19,689 nt of DNA, from contig CAADGV010000018.1 in the NCBI GenBank assembly GCA_900696645.1, positions 1 through 19,689 on the forward strand, read 5' to 3'. Position numbers and translations under genes: made by a program. Each line of letters opens with the position of its first letter. The stretch's first letter is position 1. The DNA comes from an uncultured Chlorobiota bacterium (lineage in GTDB: Bacteria > Bacteroidota > Ignavibacteria > UBA10030 > UBA6906). The notes under the pieces are model-generated. The model was not told where the DNA came from, did not search any database, and saw nothing but the letters and a program-made list of their open reading frames with translations. This document shows positions 3,414 to 11,888 of the stretch, one piece after another.

Positions 3414-4334
3414 TTGATAAAGCTTCTACTCTCTTCTTTCATGGGAATCTTGTGCCTGTCATCAGCATTCGCGCAAGCGGGTGCCGAACAAGGGGATTCA
3501 TACATGCAGGTCCTCGATGCCGACTCTGTGGCGAGGGTGGAGCTTGCAACGCTTCAGATTCCCGTCGCAACGGAAAACCAACCGCCCTCCAAAATCTCGA
3601 GCATGTTCAGCGGTTTCTGGCGGGATGAAGCGCAAATCTGGACTTCCCCCTTTCGAATGGATTCGGAAGATCTGTTGTGGGTCGGCGGCATTGCCGCAAC
3701 AACGGCATTGCTGATTGCCATCGATGAGCCGGTGTACAAGTCGTTTCGCGACTTCAAAAACGACCACACGTGGGTTCAGAAAACCAGCCCTGTTGCAACA
3801 CAGTTGGGCGAGTTTTATGTCCCTTACGCCATTTCCGCATTGTACTGTTTGAAGGGACTCGCGTTTGATGACGAGCATGCGCTGGATACAGGGCTTCTTT
3901 CCGTGCAGGCAATGATTCATTCGGCTGTTGTCGTCCAGCTTCTCAAACATCTGTTCGGAAGGATGCGCCCCTACGTCAGAAACGGTGAAGATGTATGGTA
4001 CGGCCCGCGGATGTTCTTCAAGAGATACAGCGGCGGATTCTCAAGTTACGACGCATTTCCTTCGGGACACACAATAACGGCATTCAGTCTGGCCGCCGTC
4101 GTTGCTGAACGCAGCGAGCACGCGTGGGTCAAGGCAACCGCATACTCGCTGGCGGGACTCTGCGGCCTGTCGCGGCTGACAGAGCATGATCACTGGCTTT
4201 CCGACGTTGTTGTCGGCGCCGCAATGGGAATTGCCATCGGCAAGCTTGTGGCTCGCAATCACGAACGGAGTGTAACGCTGACCCCGTCGTTCGGCTCTCG
4301 CGGTGCAGGAGTGAATGTTGTGTTCAGTTATTAG
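3414..4334 (+). CDS. PAP2-family membrane phosphatase (canonical motifs)
   Basis: 306-aa phosphatidic-acid-phosphatase type 2 protein. All three signature motifs are present: K178-x6-R185-P186 (KHLFGRMRP), P216-S-G-H219, and S253-R254-x5-H260-x3-D264. These form the vanadium-haloperoxidase-like phosphate site, with H260 as the likely nucleophile. The start chosen is TTG at 3414, preceded by AGGG, because it gives a better signal or anchor segment (MIKLLLSSFMGILCLSSAFA) than the ATG at 3441. Several hydrophobic segments lie at about 85-105, 135-180 and 220-285. The chain ends in a short beta-like strand with a terminal Tyr. The likely substrate is a lipid phosphate or undecaprenyl pyrophosphate on the periplasmic face. 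A paralogue follows immediately downstream. Confidence 0.88.
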   Translation: MIKLLLSSFMGILCLSSAFAQAGAEQGDSYMQVLDADSVARVELATLQIPVATENQPPSKISSMFSGFWRDEAQIWTSPFRMDSEDLLWVGGIAATTALLIAIDEPVYKSFRDFKNDHTWVQKTSPVATQLGEFYVPYAISALYCLKGLAFDDEHALDTGLLSVQAMIHSAVVVQLLKHLFGRMRPYVRNGEDVWYGPRMFFKRYSGGFSSYDAFPSGHTITAFSLAAVVAERSEHAWVKATAYSLAGLCGLSRLTEHDHWLSDVVVGAAMGIAIGKLVARNHERSVTLTPSFGSRGAGVNVVFSY

Positions 4335-4392
4335 CATGAGAGGGTTTTGTTTGAAGATGATATGTGGAGATTCGTTTGAGCAGTTTGGGAAA

Positions 4393-5337
4393 ATGAAGAT
4401 TGGCGTCCTGTTGCTTGCTTTGATGTTCTTGCATTCCGCCGCTTCGCGTGCTGATGAAAGAGGCATTCCGCTGAAACCGCAACGCGACTCGACCTCCGTC
4501 AGCGAGGCGTTGCCCGACTCGATGCAGTTCATGCACCGGCCGCTGCCTGCAGGCGAGCTGAAATGGTACACGATGTTCCAACGCATCCCCGGCGATTGGG
4601 TGACGTTTGCCAACAGGAATTTCCGCGAAGAGAAAATCCCGATGATCGCCGGCATTACCGCGCTGACGGCTTTTGCGGTTTGGACCGACCACCCCGTGTG
4701 GGAAGCCTCCGACCGGTGGTACAAAAGTTCGAGAACCGTCAAGAATCTTAGTGATTTCTTTGAATATTTGGGGGATGGGAAACCGCAGTTCGGACTTGCG
4801 GCAGCATTCGGCGCATTCGGGTATTTTGCGGATGATGAACGGGCGCTGCGCACCGGCAGCCAGCTCGTTCAGACAATTCTCGCCTGCGGAACCGTCATTC
4901 AAACCCTCAAGCACATCACTGGACGCGAAAGTCCGTTCGTCTCATCACGCATCAACGGGCGGTGGGTATTCTTTCCAAATCAAATCGACTACCACCGGAA
5001 AGTGCCGTACTACGATGCCTTCCCTTCCGGACACATCGCTACTGCAACCGCAACGCTCACGGTGATCATGGAAAATTATCCCGAGTGGAAGCCGTGGCTC
5101 AAGCCGCTTGCGTATTTTCTGATTGCCGGCATCGGGGTCGGACTCTCCAACACGGGCATTCATTGGTGGAGCGACTTCCCGCTCGGCATTGCGCTCGGCT
5201 ATGAGTTCGGCATGATCGCCTCGCATCCCGAAGGCTTGCCCCTCAGCGATTCGGAGAAGGATAACTCGCCGAGAGTGACTTTCAGGCCAAACATCTCGCC
5301 AATTGGGCAGGGAGTGACGTTGTCGCTGCATTTCTGA
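4393..5337 (+). CDS. divergent PAP2-family protein, tandem paralogue
   Basis: 314-aa protein from the ATG at 4393, which begins a clean signal peptide (MKIGVLLLALMFLHSAASRA). The frame is open from 4315 and would then overlap the previous gene, so an upstream start cannot be excluded. It shares layout with the preceding gene: hydrophobic N-terminal half, DDERAL-type turn, F-P-S-G-H, and a terminal beta strand ending in Phe. The motifs are altered. Motif 1 reads K173-x6-S180-P181 (Arg replaced by Ser). Motif 2, P211-S-G-H214, is intact. Motif 3 keeps H257 and D261 but has Leu251 where the conserved Arg should be. Two phosphate-binding arginines are therefore missing, suggesting changed substrate or loss of phosphatase activity. 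Probably co-transcribed with the first copy. Confidence 0.82.
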   Translation: MKIGVLLLALMFLHSAASRADERGIPLKPQRDSTSVSEALPDSMQFMHRPLPAGELKWYTMFQRIPGDWVTFANRNFREEKIPMIAGITALTAFAVWTDHPVWEASDRWYKSSRTVKNLSDFFEYLGDGKPQFGLAAAFGAFGYFADDERALRTGSQLVQTILACGTVIQTLKHITGRESPFVSSRINGRWVFFPNQIDYHRKVPYYDAFPSGHIATATATLTVIMENYPEWKPWLKPLAYFLIAGIGVGLSNTGIHWWSDFPLGIALGYEFGMIASHPEGLPLSDSEKDNSPRVTFRPNISPIGQGVTLSLHF

Positions 5338-6573: not shown

Positions 6574-8205
6574 TCAACGAAGCAACAATGCCTTCCTCGT
6601 CAATGTCATTTCGCCCGCCGTGAGCCGGTAGATGTACACGCCGCTGGGCAGATTGGCGGCGTTCCATTCAACGGAATAACTTCCCGGATTCATCGGCTCG
6701 TTCACGAGTGTCCCGACTTCCCTCCCCAACACATCAAACACCTTGAGTGTTACATGGCTGAATGCTGAGAGCTGATAGCTGATTGCTGTTGCCGGATTGA
6801 ACGGATTCGGATAATTCTGCTCAAGAACAAATTCCCGCGGATGTGACGGCGATATCTCCTTCACATCCGTTGGCGAATCGCCGTACGCAATAAAAAACAG
6901 GAACTGCATCTCATCGCTGCTGCGCAATCCGTAGTAAATAGGCTGCGCCGTGGGATTATGATACGTCGTGATCAGCATGAGGCTGTCACCGGCGAGAAAC
7001 CGCATCGGCGTCGTGAGCGAAAGAAGTGCCGGATGCTCCCAATCGTTGGTGTAGTAGAGAAGCTGCCCGTTATGCGCTCCACCGACACCGACCACGCTGA
7101 ACTCGATCATCCGCTGATGGGCATGCGCCCACATTTGAATGATGTTGGTATTCTGAGTGAAACGAAACGCCCTGCTGATCGTCGTTGTTTGAAACGGGGG
7201 TAGGAAAATATTCGTGTTGGAGAAATGCCTCGGTGTAGCCTTGTGCAGAACGGTGGCGGAGTCAACGGTATGCAGATTCACATACACTTCGCCGATGCGC
7301 GGGGCGCTTGTGCGGTTCACGGAGTGAACATTCAGGTCGAAGCCCGTTCCCCGCGGAAGTTCCAGCGCAACGCCGGGCGGAAAGTAGTAATCGACTTCCG
7401 GCGTCTGCGTTCCGACAAAAAACCTGAAGGGGAAAAGATTGTTCAACTCAAAAATCGCCGGAAGGTAATTACCCAGCGAATCACGTATGTCTCGATACAC
7501 ATGAGGCGTCGGCGAGCCTGTTCCGACCGGATAGTTGTACACAATCATGTGGTGGCTGCCGGCACGGTAGCGGATTTGATACCGGTTGACATACACGTTC
7601 TGCGACGTCGGGTAGGGAATGAAATAAAGAAACTCCCTGTCGTGTATTTGCGCGGGCCACACGTGAAACGGGCCGAGATGAAGCTGAAAGCCGCTTGCAG
7701 GAAGAGGAAGCGGTTCGAAATTGAGAATGAAGCGCGTAGTATCGTTGAAGAGATTCGTATCAGCTCCGGCAACAACGCCGGTCTCCGGCGCCCCGCCGCT
7801 GATCCAGCGGTTGACAAACGCAAGTTCACCCATGGTGAGGAAAGGAAGTCCGAGCGGCATAATCGAGCCGTACCCCTGCGGCATGTTGACGCTGTTCGGC
7901 GCGTTGATCTTGTGCCAGAAGTAACTCTTGTTGAGTCCGGGAATGCCGCCGATGGTGCTGACGCGGACCAGACTATCCTGCGCCGCCGCGATGTTGTGCG
8001 GAGTGACGTTCACCAGCTTGCGGTACGCTGAATCGGCCGTGAGAATGAGCCCCGTTTGTACTGCGGGCGGATAGCCGCCGACGGCGTGGCAACTCGTGCA
8101 GTACCTGTCGAGCACACGCTCTTGCACGGTTTGCCACGTGGACGGTTGGGCAAACAGTGGCAATGACAGACATGTCAGCAATGCGACGTAGGCGGAAGGC
8201 TTCAT
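6574..8205 (-). CDS. secreted heme-c / copper type II monooxygenase-like protein with T9SS tail
   Basis: 543-aa exported protein. Order: signal peptide (1-19); a c-type heme site C36-T-S-C39-H40 with M109 or M116 as possible axial ligand; a two-lobed PHM/DBH-like copper monooxygenase core; and a T9SS sorting tail (N464-Y-P-N-P-F-N-P, then VFDVLGREV, ending in basic ALLLR). Copper ligands match peptidylglycine/dopamine monooxygenase positions: H218-H219-M (first CuH ligands), H294 (third CuH ligand), H361-A-H363 (CuM) and M433 within S-x-D-E-M (CuM methionine). The start has a strong GGGGAGAG ribosome site. Known family members hydroxylate C-H bonds using two coppers and an external reductant; a fused cytochrome domain could supply electrons (inference). 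Substrate unknown. It is transcribed toward the alcohol dehydrogenase. Confidence 0.85.
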   Translation of the reverse strand: MKPSAYVALLTCLSLPLFAQPSTWQTVQERVLDRYCTSCHAVGGYPPAVQTGLILTADSAYRKLVNVTPHNIAAAQDSLVRVSTIGGIPGLNKSYFWHKINAPNSVNMPQGYGSIMPLGLPFLTMGELAFVNRWISGGAPETGVVAGADTNLFNDTTRFILNFEPLPLPASGFQLHLGPFHVWPAQIHDREFLYFIPYPTSQNVYVNRYQIRYRAGSHHMIVYNYPVGTGSPTPHVYRDIRDSLGNYLPAIFELNNLFPFRFFVGTQTPEVDYYFPPGVALELPRGTGFDLNVHSVNRTSAPRIGEVYVNLHTVDSATVLHKATPRHFSNTNIFLPPFQTTTISRAFRFTQNTNIIQMWAHAHQRMIEFSVVGVGGAHNGQLLYYTNDWEHPALLSLTTPMRFLAGDSLMLITTYHNPTAQPIYYGLRSSDEMQFLFFIAYGDSPTDVKEISPSHPREFVLEQNYPNPFNPATAISYQLSAFSHVTLKVFDVLGREVGTLVNEPMNPGSYSVEWNAANLPSGVYIYRLTAGEMTLTRKALLLR

Positions 8206-8332: not shown

Positions 8333-9313
8333 CTAAACGTTGACGCTTATCCGGCCATCTCTGATTTTTATTTTGAGCTCCTTCATCGAGTCCTTCAAAT
8401 CAAGCTTCATCTTTCCGAGACCCTCCCGCAGTTCCTGCATTTCTTCACGAAAGCGATCGTGTTCTTCGTGCGGGAACAGATCGATGATTACATCATCCGA
8501 ATCGAAATACCGGAAGCTCAAGTCGCGTTCACGTTCGGGAATCGTCAGCGATAGCTTCTGCGTGCTTCCCTTTCGGAGAACCTCGACATCCGCCTTGTCG
8601 CCGCTCTTGTAATCTTCCAGAGCATAATGGATATCGTCAATCCGCCGGATGCTTTCCTTTCCGATCCTGACGATCACATCACCCGCCTTGAATCCGGCCT
8701 TCTCTGCCTCGCTGTCACGCCTGACGCTTTTGACGAGAACGCCTTTGCCATCCGGCGCACCGAAGTACTCGCCTAATTGTTTGTTGAGATTCTCGAGCGT
8801 CAGCCCGTACAGTACCGATGATCGCATCAGCGAGAGAGGCGGCTCAATTCGAAAGCGTGGTGCCACCGGCGTCCGCGGCACGATTGTGAGCGAGCGGGGC
8901 GCCTTGTCGATTGTTACCTTCAGTGATTTCTTCTCTCCGTCCCGAAGCACGGTGACAAACACCTCCTTACCCGGTTTGGTGCTGCGAACTTCGTCGATCA
9001 GGTCGCTGCTGTCGTAGATCTTTTTTCCGTCAAATTCGGTGATAACGTCGCCCTCACGAATGCCCGCAGCTTCAGCGGGACTCTCTTCTTCAACGTTGCG
9101 CACGTAAGCGCCATCTCTCGATTCTAACTTCTTTTTCCGTACAAGACTGGAAGAGATATTCTCGATGGAAACACCGAGCCAACCGCGATCTTTGTCGCTA
9201 ACATAAACGTAGGTTGAGCGGGTTCTCTCCTTTTCATCACCGGGACGAATACTGCACGCAGTGTTGGTGAAGATCGCGGAAAATAAGAATGCAATCAGAA
9301 CTATGGATTTCAT
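8333..9313 (-). CDS. double-PDZ exported protein without protease domain
   Basis: 326-aa protein. The N-terminus is hydrophobic (MKSIVLIAFLFSAIF) and ends in T-N-T-A-C20, a possible but imperfect lipobox. PDZ1 spans about residues 43-138 (G-W-L-G-V-S-I, then G-I-R-E-G-D-V-I-T), and PDZ2 about 168-260 (Y-G-L-T-L, then G-F-K-A-G-D-V-I-V-R-I-G). A charged amphipathic helix follows at about 280-318, possibly a coiled coil. No trypsin-like Ser-His-Asp domain is present, so this is not DegP itself; a periplasmic adaptor or sensor is more likely. The ribosome site AAGGAGGTACGC before ATG is very strong. It is the last gene of the ECF sigma operon, followed by a terminator. PDZ domains bind protein C-termini, so it could sense misfolded outer-membrane proteins (inference). 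Confidence 0.82.
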   Translation of the reverse strand: MKSIVLIAFLFSAIFTNTACSIRPGDEKERTRSTYVYVSDKDRGWLGVSIENISSSLVRKKKLESRDGAYVRNVEEESPAEAAGIREGDVITEFDGKKIYDSSDLIDEVRSTKPGKEVFVTVLRDGEKKSLKVTIDKAPRSLTIVPRTPVAPRFRIEPPLSLMRSSVLYGLTLENLNKQLGEYFGAPDGKGVLVKSVRRDSEAEKAGFKAGDVIVRIGKESIRRIDDIHYALEDYKSGDKADVEVLRKGSTQKLSLTIPERERDLSFRYFDSDDVIIDLFPHEEHDRFREEMQELREGLGKMKLDLKDSMKELKIKIRDGRISVNV

Positions 9314-9337
9314 GCGTACCTCCTTCTTTGCAAAGAG

Positions 9338-9356
9338 GCGAGACAGAGTCCCGCCC
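9338..9356. repeat. GC-rich hairpin repeat copy
   Basis: GGCGAGAC (9338-9345) pairs with GTCCCGCC (9349-9356), with one G-T wobble and a 3-base loop. It lies between the HEAT and PDZ genes. Read on the - strand (GGCGGGAC TCT GTCTCGCC) it closely resembles the hairpin at 19451-19470, so it is probably the same dispersed family. Confidence 0.5.
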
Positions 9357-9367
9357 TTACGTGTTTA

Positions 9368-10483
9368 CTATTTGCCTTTCAAGATTTGCATCAATGCTGC
9401 ACGTGATTTATCGTTGCCGATGCTGCCGAGATAATACACGGCGTCGCTACGCAGATCGTAGTTTTCGTTGGTTGTCGCTACGCGGACGAGAAAATCAACC
9501 GACTTGTCGCTCCCGACGTCCGCAATAGCATACAGAGCGGTTTGCATCTGCTTCTCCTTTTGCTTCGGATATCCGTTGAACAGGGTAATCAGTGCATCGG
9601 TGGATTTGTTCTTATCCCCCCGCAAATTCGCAATCGTATAGAGGGCCGTCATCTGCACATCGTCGCTCGCATCGGATCGGGCAACATCAACAAGCACCGG
9701 CAGCACATCGAATTTCCCGAAGTCGCTTAGCGATTCAAGCGCCGTAATGCGGACAATCTCGGCCTGCGACTTATCGAGCGCGATATCCTTCAGCGTGGTA
9801 AATGCCTCCTTGTCGTTCTCCGATCCGCCGAGTGCACGGATAGCATCCAACTTGATGCGCGTTTGCGGATCGAGATCCTTCGTTTTTAGTCTAAGACTGC
9901 CGGCCGACCACGCAACAGAAGCCCTTGGTGGTCTCGGCGTTCTTCCCACTCGACGATACACGTCGCGCATCGCGAGTTCTGCTTCACGCATTGCCCTCTC
10001 GCTTTCGCGCATCGTTGTGCCGATGCTGTAGGTGTACGAACCGGAGCCCGTTTTGACCTTCAGGTTTTTTCCGTCAGGCGCGACAATCAGGACATTGTCG
10101 TTTATATCGGCAACCGCGTCATCAACATAGCGGCTGTCGGGAAAGTCGCTGATGAACTTCTCGTACGCCGCAAGACCTTTGCCTCTGTTGAGTCGTTTCT
10201 GTGCGTACGCCGACCAGTATGCTGCATCGTCCAGATACTCGCTCTTCTGGAACTTCGTGCTTACCTCGGCGAACTTCTTCAGCGCCTCGTTCCACTTGTC
10301 TGCAAGAATGAATGCGTAACCCTCCTTGTATGTCTTGTACGCAGGGTCTTTCTCGTTCTCCCCTTCACCGGTTGTCATTGCATCAGCAAGCAATGGGCGG
10401 GGCGTGTACACTGCTTGCGCGTTGACCTGTACGTGCACAAGCGCAAGCACAAGGGCTGCAAGAACAATTCGATATCGCTTCAT
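9368..10483 (-). CDS. exported TPR / HEAT-repeat protein
   Basis: 371-aa protein with a signal peptide (cleavage near A22 or A24). Residues 47-125 form TPR-like helices of the outer-membrane-lipoprotein type (W-N-E-A-L-K-K-F, then A-Y-E-K-F-I-S-D-F-P-D-S). A linker contains repeated M-R-E-x-E-R/L-A-M-R. From about 205 to 370 come four to five HEAT-like repeats of roughly 35 residues (A-L-E-S-L-S-D-F-G, A-L-Y-T-I-A-N-L, A-L-Y-A-I-A-D-V-G, A-V-Y-Y-L-G-S-I-G). It starts 8 bases after the anti-sigma stop with AGGAGTCAGT before ATG, so it belongs to the same operon. It is a likely periplasmic protein-interaction scaffold; its partner may be the anti-sigma or PDZ protein (inference). Confidence 0.82.
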   Translation of the reverse strand: MKRYRIVLAALVLALVHVQVNAQAVYTPRPLLADAMTTGEGENEKDPAYKTYKEGYAFILADKWNEALKKFAEVSTKFQKSEYLDDAAYWSAYAQKRLNRGKGLAAYEKFISDFPDSRYVDDAVADINDNVLIVAPDGKNLKVKTGSGSYTYSIGTTMRESERAMREAELAMRDVYRRVGRTPRPPRASVAWSAGSLRLKTKDLDPQTRIKLDAIRALGGSENDKEAFTTLKDIALDKSQAEIVRITALESLSDFGKFDVLPVLVDVARSDASDDVQMTALYTIANLRGDKNKSTDALITLFNGYPKQKEKQMQTALYAIADVGSDKSVDFLVRVATTNENYDLRSDAVYYLGSIGNDKSRAALMQILKGK

Positions 10484-10491
10484 ACTGACTC

Positions 10492-11304
10492 CTAATAGAT
10501 TCTGTCGGTTACACTCGATTGACTTGTATCGTACGACGCAGCCGCCATCCTGATTTTGAACAATAGATTCTCCTGACGGATGCCACTCCGGATAAGTTCG
10601 ACGTTCGGGAGATCATTGGTTTCTTCAAGATTGGCAAGCTCGATCATGATCTTTTCAAGATCACGAATCAGGCGCGCAGAACGCCCGTCAAGGGGCTGCT
10701 GTTGCAGGAGACGTGCCTCGTGTACAAGACTGCGTGAAACCGATCGTTCGTCGCTGAGATCAATGTTCGGCTCGTCTTCCGTTCTCATGTTGGCAATGCC
10801 AACCAACAATGTCTTCGACTTGCGGAAATAGTCGCTGATGCGCTGGTGGGACTCGTTTGCAGTTGGAATGATTCGCGCCTCTTCAGACATATCCTCCTTT
10901 TCGGCAACGTGTATCGGGGCTTCAAACTGCGGTCGGAAGAAGAACACGGCAATCCCCATAACAGCAAGCGCTGCTCCTGCGCTGTACACATAAGCAGGGC
11001 GGAACGCCACGAACGAGCGAACACGATCAACCAACGCCGAGAACACTCCCGTCCTTGACTTTCGCTCACCACGAATGTCACGTTGAACGTTCATTGCGAG
11101 CGAATGCCAGAACATCGCATCCCGTTCATCTGCCGGTTGAGATGAGGGATGCGGAAGAACTGCGAGAGTCTTCTGCAACCCGGCTAACTCATCCGCACAT
11201 TGCCTGCACGCTGCAAGATGTTGCGCAACTGCGTTCCGGTCGGCGTCGCTCAGTTCGTTGTGAAGAAAATCGTACAACACATTCTGAACATCTGAGTGTC
11301 TCAT
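10492..11304 (-). CDS. zinc-finger (zf-HC2) membrane anti-sigma factor
   Basis: 270-aa anti-sigma factor. The frame is open further upstream, but the ATG at 11304 is chosen because it overlaps the sigma stop as ATGA and has a textbook AGGAGGAATTGGC ribosome site, indicating translational coupling. The N-terminal zinc-binding anti-sigma domain has H29-x3-C33-x2-C36, followed by one transmembrane helix at about 102-122 (V-Y-S-A-G-A-A-L-A-V-M-G-I-A-V-F-F-F). A periplasmic domain of about 145 residues is largely helical and charged, with no recognised sensor fold. It should hold the ECF sigma factor inactive at the inner membrane until an envelope signal releases it; release by proteolysis is typical of the group but not shown here. 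Confidence 0.9.
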   Translation of the reverse strand: MRHSDVQNVLYDFLHNELSDADRNAVAQHLAACRQCADELAGLQKTLAVLPHPSSQPADERDAMFWHSLAMNVQRDIRGERKSRTGVFSALVDRVRSFVAFRPAYVYSAGAALAVMGIAVFFFRPQFEAPIHVAEKEDMSEEARIIPTANESHQRISDYFRKSKTLLVGIANMRTEDEPNIDLSDERSVSRSLVHEARLLQQQPLDGRSARLIRDLEKIMIELANLEETNDLPNVELIRSGIRQENLLFKIRMAAASYDTSQSSVTDRIY

Positions 11305-11888
11305 GCCAATTCCTCCTGCAAGTGTTCGAGCTTGCTTCTCATCTTTTTTAATCCTCGAAATAAATGTGTTTTCACCGTCCCCTCCGAGCATTGCAGAATG
11401 TCGCTTACCTGCCGGGTGGAAAGCCCGTTCAAGTGCCGCAGAATCACCACCGCCCGTTGCAGCGTCGGCAATTCGTGCAATGCCTGCTCTATGTATGCCT
11501 GTTGTTCTTTCACAACAATCTCTTCGTGATGGTCACACTCAACGCCGCCTCTCACTTCTTCCAGCGGCACGTGACGTTGAACCCGGTTCTTGTCAAGTCG
11601 CTTTCTTGTCAAAGCCACGTTCACCACAATGCGATGAAGCCACGTACTGAATTCCGCATCACCCCGAAACGACGGCAGCGCCGCGTGCACTTTCACGAAC
11701 GCCTCCTGTGTCACATCTTCCGCACTGTCGTGATCGCCTGTGAACCGGTACGCAATGTTGTACGCATGTCTGATGTACCGATCCATAAGAAGACGGAATG
11801 CTTCGCCGTCTCCTTTCGTTGCGTGTTGGATAAGTTGCTGTTCGCCACGCTCTCGCGCCGGCGGAACGGGCTGTTCAGCAGCCGCCAT
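11301..11888 (-). CDS. ECF-family RNA polymerase sigma factor (RpoE-like)
   Basis: 195-aa extracytoplasmic-function sigma factor. Region 2 spans about residues 28-95 with D-R-Y-I-R-H-A-Y-N-I-A, A-E-D-V-T-Q-E-A-F-V-K-V and F-S-T-W-L-H-R-I-V-V-N. Region 4 spans about 132-188 with L-P-T-L-Q-R-A-V-V-I-L-R and the helix-turn-helix G-L-S-T-R-Q-V-S-D-I-L-Q-C-S-E-G-T-V-K-T-H. Region 3 is absent, as expected for ECF. It heads a four-gene unit with its anti-sigma factor, a HEAT protein and a PDZ protein. A short dyad and a possible AAC-N18-GTC pair upstream could be an autoregulated promoter, but this is weak. Confidence 0.93.
   Translation of the reverse strand: MAAAEQPVPPARERGEQQLIQHATKGDGEAFRLLMDRYIRHAYNIAYRFTGDHDSAEDVTQEAFVKVHAALPSFRGDAEFSTWLHRIVVNVALTRKRLDKNRVQRHVPLEEVRGGVECDHHEEIVVKEQQAYIEQALHELPTLQRAVVILRHLNGLSTRQVSDILQCSEGTVKTHLFRGLKKMRSKLEHLQEELA

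Follow-up and report, generated by a model that had tools for sequence, protein, structure and literature searches.

The DNA analysed here, referred to as the window, is a stretch of 19,689 nucleotides that makes up one entire contig of the 4.2 Mb genome of an uncultured Chlorobiota bacterium. An open reading frame at 6574-8205 encodes a protein of 543 amino acids that joins a heme-c domain to a PHM-type copper domain; an earlier sequence-only reading had given these coordinates exactly, but had left the strand, which is the minus strand, unstated. The gene and its features are as follows.

6574-8205, minus strand: whole gene, 543 amino acids, with signal peptide-like N-terminus, heme-c domain, PHM/DBH-type copper domain and T9SS tail
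8146-8205, minus strand: hydrophobic, signal-peptide-like N-terminus, residues 1-20 (read from sequence only)
7780-8145, minus strand: heme-c domain, residues 21-142 (domain model; structure and profile matches to 5c2v)
8086-8100, minus strand: heme attachment motif CTSCH, residues 36-40 (CX2-4CH kept by all 30 sequences that have the domain)
7858-7860, minus strand: Met116, inferred as the probable sixth heme ligand (Met in 28/30 sequences with the domain)
6868-7719, minus strand: PHM/DBH-type dicopper monooxygenase region, both halves, residues 163-446 (Foldseek match to PHM; Z scores to 6ala and 4zel)
7549-7554, minus strand: His218-His219, predicted CuH ligands (32/32)
7324-7326, minus strand: His294, predicted CuH ligand (32/32; aligns with the PHM H172 region)
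7117-7125, minus strand: His361-Ala-His363, predicted CuM ligands (32/32; aligns with PHM HTH)
6907-6921, minus strand: SSDEM, residues 429-433, with Met433 as the predicted CuM Met ligand (32/32; aligns with PHM SSDEM)
6592-6813, minus strand: T9SS type A sorting domain, residues 465-538 (TIGR04183, E 2.6e-9; mirolase CTD, Z 9.0)

The central claim of the earlier reading, that a CxxCH heme site and the copper ligands of PHM and DBH are carried by one chain, holds for every motif named (HHM at 218-220, H294, HAH at 361-363, and SxDEM as SSDEM at 429-433). The protein has three cysteines in all, two at the heme site and a third in the signal region, and hence none of the disulfides of PHM is present.

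For the copper domain, Pfam alone is a weak guide, and alignment with relatives settles the assignment to the PHM family. In Pfam, the window protein as a single sequence scores 17.8 bits with PF03712, which is below the cut-off of 23; profile and fold comparisons do reach PHM. Two relatives, L020 and L050, lie above the cut-off (24.5 and 28.9 bits). Compared with the PDB by phmmer, the single sequence had no match; only a profile built from 32 sequences led to solved structures, those of rat PHM and of mutants of this enzyme (from E 3.7e-4), and in that alignment the H172, HTH and SSDEM of PHM fall in register. The AlphaFold2 model (pLDDT 86.8) retrieves PHM in Foldseek at E 4.4e-14, and VIA-align superposes it on PHM (6ala) with Z 23.4 and an rmsd of 3.5 Å over 267 residues, and on DBH (4zel) with Z 22.5. 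The 267 aligned residues comprise the ligand-bearing region, as the superposition on PHM suggested earlier would have it. Both predicted metal sites have their complete ligand sets, i.e., His-His and His for CuH (H218, H219, H294), and His-x-His and Met for CuM (H361, H363, M433), the latter in register with PHM, and all six residues are invariant in the 32 aligned sequences (the window protein and 31 relatives). Chance is excluded as an explanation by this invariance and by that of the CX2-4CH motif in all 30 aligned sequences having the heme domain.

The likeness to PHM comprises the predicted fold, the six copper ligands and the SSDEM motif; the differences are the added heme-c domain and T9SS tail, and the replacement, according to the profile alignment, of PHM Arg240, Asn316 and Tyr318 by Trp359, Phe435 and Phe437. 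The three PHM residues are those that bind the peptide carboxylate, and they are replaced here: judged by its ligands the window protein is a PHM-fold enzyme, but probably not a peptide-amidating one, and the reaction of PHM itself is not predicted. DBH, which has a DOMON domain and uses ascorbate, is likewise similar in predicted fold and copper ligand set, but differs from the window protein, in which a heme-c domain lies ahead of the copper domain.

Modelled alone, the heme domain reaches a pLDDT of 95.3 and a pTM of 0.90. Methionine occupies position 116 in 28 of the 30 sequences that have the domain. Foldseek returned no significant match for the isolated domain, and structure comparison gives only one of any size, to the heme domain at the C-terminus of hydrazine synthase alpha (5c2v; VIA-align Z 6.6, rmsd 3.3 Å, 102 residues, 20% identity), a Z score that could reflect a mere common arrangement. 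The same heme domain is reached, weakly, by the sequence profile (residues 650-766, E 0.0038). Hydrazine synthase alpha differs in its partner domains and chemistry, and 5c2v has no Met at the position aligned with Met116. Several family members give weak to moderate matches to the models for SO2930-type diheme cytochromes (TIGR03806), CTI and PSCyt1, but these are named as other proteins, and the CTI match to a family member is confined to some 45 residues that follow the heme motif. The CxxCH motif, whose setting in a cytochrome fold the earlier reading had made decisive, is placed in a conserved and confidently modelled domain that resembles the heme domain of hydrazine synthase alpha. Neither of the two outcomes named as refuting the earlier reading came out of the present comparisons. 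We treat the domain as a real, divergent cytochrome c domain for which heme attachment is predicted.

The T9SS tail read from the sequence is matched by curated models (Por_Secre_tail, E 8.8e-9; TIGR04183, 36.9 bits at a cut-off of 23), and the predicted model of the sorting domain has the fold of the mirolase CTD (VIA-align). The host genome encodes SprA (E 2.0e-62), C25 peptidases and cytochrome c assembly genes, which makes export of a heme-loaded protein feasible; it also encodes well over a hundred T9SS-type tails. Relatives that end 8-10 residues past the DEM motif mostly have a lipobox-like cysteine (by pattern match only), and those with at least 100 residues past it have a T9SS tail or, in Planctomycetes, a dockerin or PEP-CTERM. 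The heme and copper core behaves as one unit that is exported by whichever system the host provides; the address label varies and the core is constant.

The frequency of the fusion was surveyed by scanning 84,980 species genomes with two peptide patterns taken from the copper domain alone, followed by confirmation of the matches with the fused window protein. This yielded 40 relatives, 38 of them with an in-frame heme motif ahead of the copper domain; since the query used for confirmation was fused, heme-free copper domains that have diverged strongly may be under-represented in the count. Two loci, L045 and L046, have the copper domain without heme, and one such genome has a free cytochrome of the same type elsewhere. 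The relatives are spread over Bacteroidota, Ignavibacteriota, KSB1, Rhodothermota, Planctomycetota, Poribacteria, Marinimicrobia and Binatia; L038 comes from an Imperialibacter genome. Of 395 sampled genomes from the window's phylum, 20 (counting the window's own) encode the fused protein over its whole length in a single frame, and one genome has the copper domain only, at full strength. Within the window's own family, the whole protein occurs, among the genomes searched, only in the source species and one sister, and a same-genus orthologue is 92% identical over the core. Compared with the sister-species copy, dN/dS is 0.042 for the whole protein, 0.072 for the heme domain, 0.032 for the copper domain and 0.157 for the tail, so selection on both domains is strongly purifying. 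A tree built from copper domains groups the window protein, with full support, with sequences from KSB1, Rhodothermaceae and Planctomycetota, which suggests that the gene moved between phyla, although the loci are binned metagenome contigs. A search of plasmids revealed no member of the fused family: four of five matches to the window protein are to the T9SS tail alone, and the fifth sits in a T9SS-tailed protein annotated without a copper-enzyme name.

Further architectures were also noticed. A second, more divergent fused lineage in the same class is represented by L095 (571-2109) and L099 (1162-2781), which combine a CxxCHRxGxIAPF heme domain with a PHM domain that has all six ligands; PF03712 matches occur in 36 of 294 genomes of this class. 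A Binatia protein of 1234 residues (L047, 3899-7600) has PD40 beta-propeller repeats behind its heme and PHM-like domains.

Recurrent neighbours were sought across the 40 loci, and those that are shared follow close relatives only; a few loci share genes for TonB receptors or FG-GAP proteins, but this is no general rule. With neighbours not conserved, the surrounding genes give no clue to the substrate. Secreted proteins of FG-GAP or ASPIC/UnbV type lie beside PHM-like genes, fused and split alike, at L014, L016, L112, L023 and L055 (by Pfam for L023 and L055, by eye for the others). In the window, an alcohol dehydrogenase gene downstream of the heme-copper gene is convergent with it. Upstream, a run at 8333-11888 on the same (minus) strand, separated by a gap of 127 bp, encodes an ECF-type sigma factor and an anti-sigma-like protein (both by eye), a HEAT-repeat protein and a double-PDZ protein. 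Of four genomes checked for the upstream PDZ gene, that of the sister species alone gives a close match (79%), and the same-genus genome G002 gives none. On the plus strand, two overlapping open reading frames at 3414-5337 appear by eye to be tandem PAP2-type membrane phosphatases, and 172-2385 encodes a candidate secreted metalloprotease of 737 residues that by eye resembles M6 and carries a T9SS-type tail (FlgD_ig/Por_Secre match). Searches for Rfam RNAs gave none, and those for promoter and terminator signals none above chance.

That the two domains work together is best supported by relatives in which the same pair is found either fused or as neighbouring genes. The domains are encoded by two genes side by side in G490 and in three genomes from the same order (G055, G044, G048); in G448 a single gene lies between the cytochrome and copper genes. 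Profile comparison identifies the separate cytochrome as the same heme domain (E 2.8e-28) and the separate copper protein as the same family (E 1.5e-29). G042 has a copper protein without a heme domain, and a free cytochrome of this type elsewhere in the genome. The pattern supports a functional link between the heme and copper domains, as judged from gene arrangement.

A sister clade of PHM-like proteins has His at the position of the CuM Met (e.g., ENQEH for SSDEM) and HHxN at CuH. Its members include L014 (1402-2349), L015 (1429-2379) and L016 (1378-2361), and also L109, L111, L112 and L114; at five of the loci checked, a gene for a CX4CH or CX5CH cytochrome adjoins or is one gene away.

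We consider it rather probable that the window protein is secreted to the cell surface and is a copper monooxygenase of PHM/DBH fold, with a heme-c domain of its own for electron transfer. Following Sec export, heme would be attached to C36 and C39 in the periplasm and copper loaded at both sites, and T9SS export would lead to surface attachment via the C-terminal domain. The heme-c domain would take single electrons from a periplasmic or extracellular donor and hand them to CuH; electrons arriving at CuM would allow O2 to be activated there and a C-H bond of the substrate to be hydroxylated, with heme taking the place of the ascorbate used by the animal enzymes. A role of the heme domain as electron supply to the copper centres is plausible, and is strengthened by the existence of both fused and split gene arrangements; the interpretation given in the earlier reading is supported in part. 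The electron route to the second copper and the substrates of bacterial PHM-like proteins are little-studied questions.

A working copper monooxygenase might, however, be reduced by small diffusible reductants, with heme c serving to dock a redox partner, to sense, or to drain stray electrons or peroxide and so protect the copper site. The animal enzymes PHM and DBH run on ascorbate without any heme c, and heme-free relatives exist; yet the heme motif persists at 38 of 40 loci, its attachment residues are invariant, and several unfused relatives keep the heme domain as a neighbouring gene. We regard this explanation as unlikely. Somewhat less likely still is that the protein is not an oxygenase, and that two copper sites and a heme form an electron-transfer protein or another oxidoreductase, e.g., a reductase or peroxidase, on a reused PHM fold. 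Loss of the PHM substrate-binding residues would fit such a change, as would the replacement of Met by His at CuM in the related clade, since the chemistry of the site may have drifted, and the resemblance of the heme domain to that of hydrazine synthase, which is not an oxygenase. Against this, none of the canonical ligands, the CuM Met included, is lost in the window protein or in the 31 relatives aligned with it. Surface binding or scavenging of copper with no catalytic role agrees with surface export and with the lack of conserved metabolic neighbours at the loci compared, but a strictly conserved, dedicated heme site would be superfluous for copper storage and the specific copper ligand set is fully kept, and we regard it as highly improbable. 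The most likely reading of sequence and model is a hydroxylase that depends on O2 and draws its electrons from the heme c in the same chain.

The general design has a counterpart in LPMOs that are fused to, or reduced by, cytochrome domains, and which likewise pair an extracellular copper oxygenase with a heme donor; their copper site (histidine brace) and fold are, however, unrelated to those of PHM-type enzymes. No paper on a heme-c/PHM fusion was found in the part of the literature that was searched, and NCBIfam holds no curated model for the combination. Each of the two domains is known on its own.

Tentatively, and with slightly less than even confidence, the window protein may represent a widespread, undescribed bacterial class of PHM/DBH-type copper oxygenases that has a built-in or operon-encoded heme-c donor instead of ascorbate, acts on a new extracellular substrate, and has a sister clade using His for Met at the O2-activating copper. 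The fusion suggests how bacterial PHM-type copper enzymes may obtain electrons without vitamin C. An enzyme that brings its heme reporter along in the same chain would allow electron entry to be followed by spectroscopy, and proteins of the sister clade, with His at CuM, are natural variants on which to study why the animal enzymes use Met at this site.
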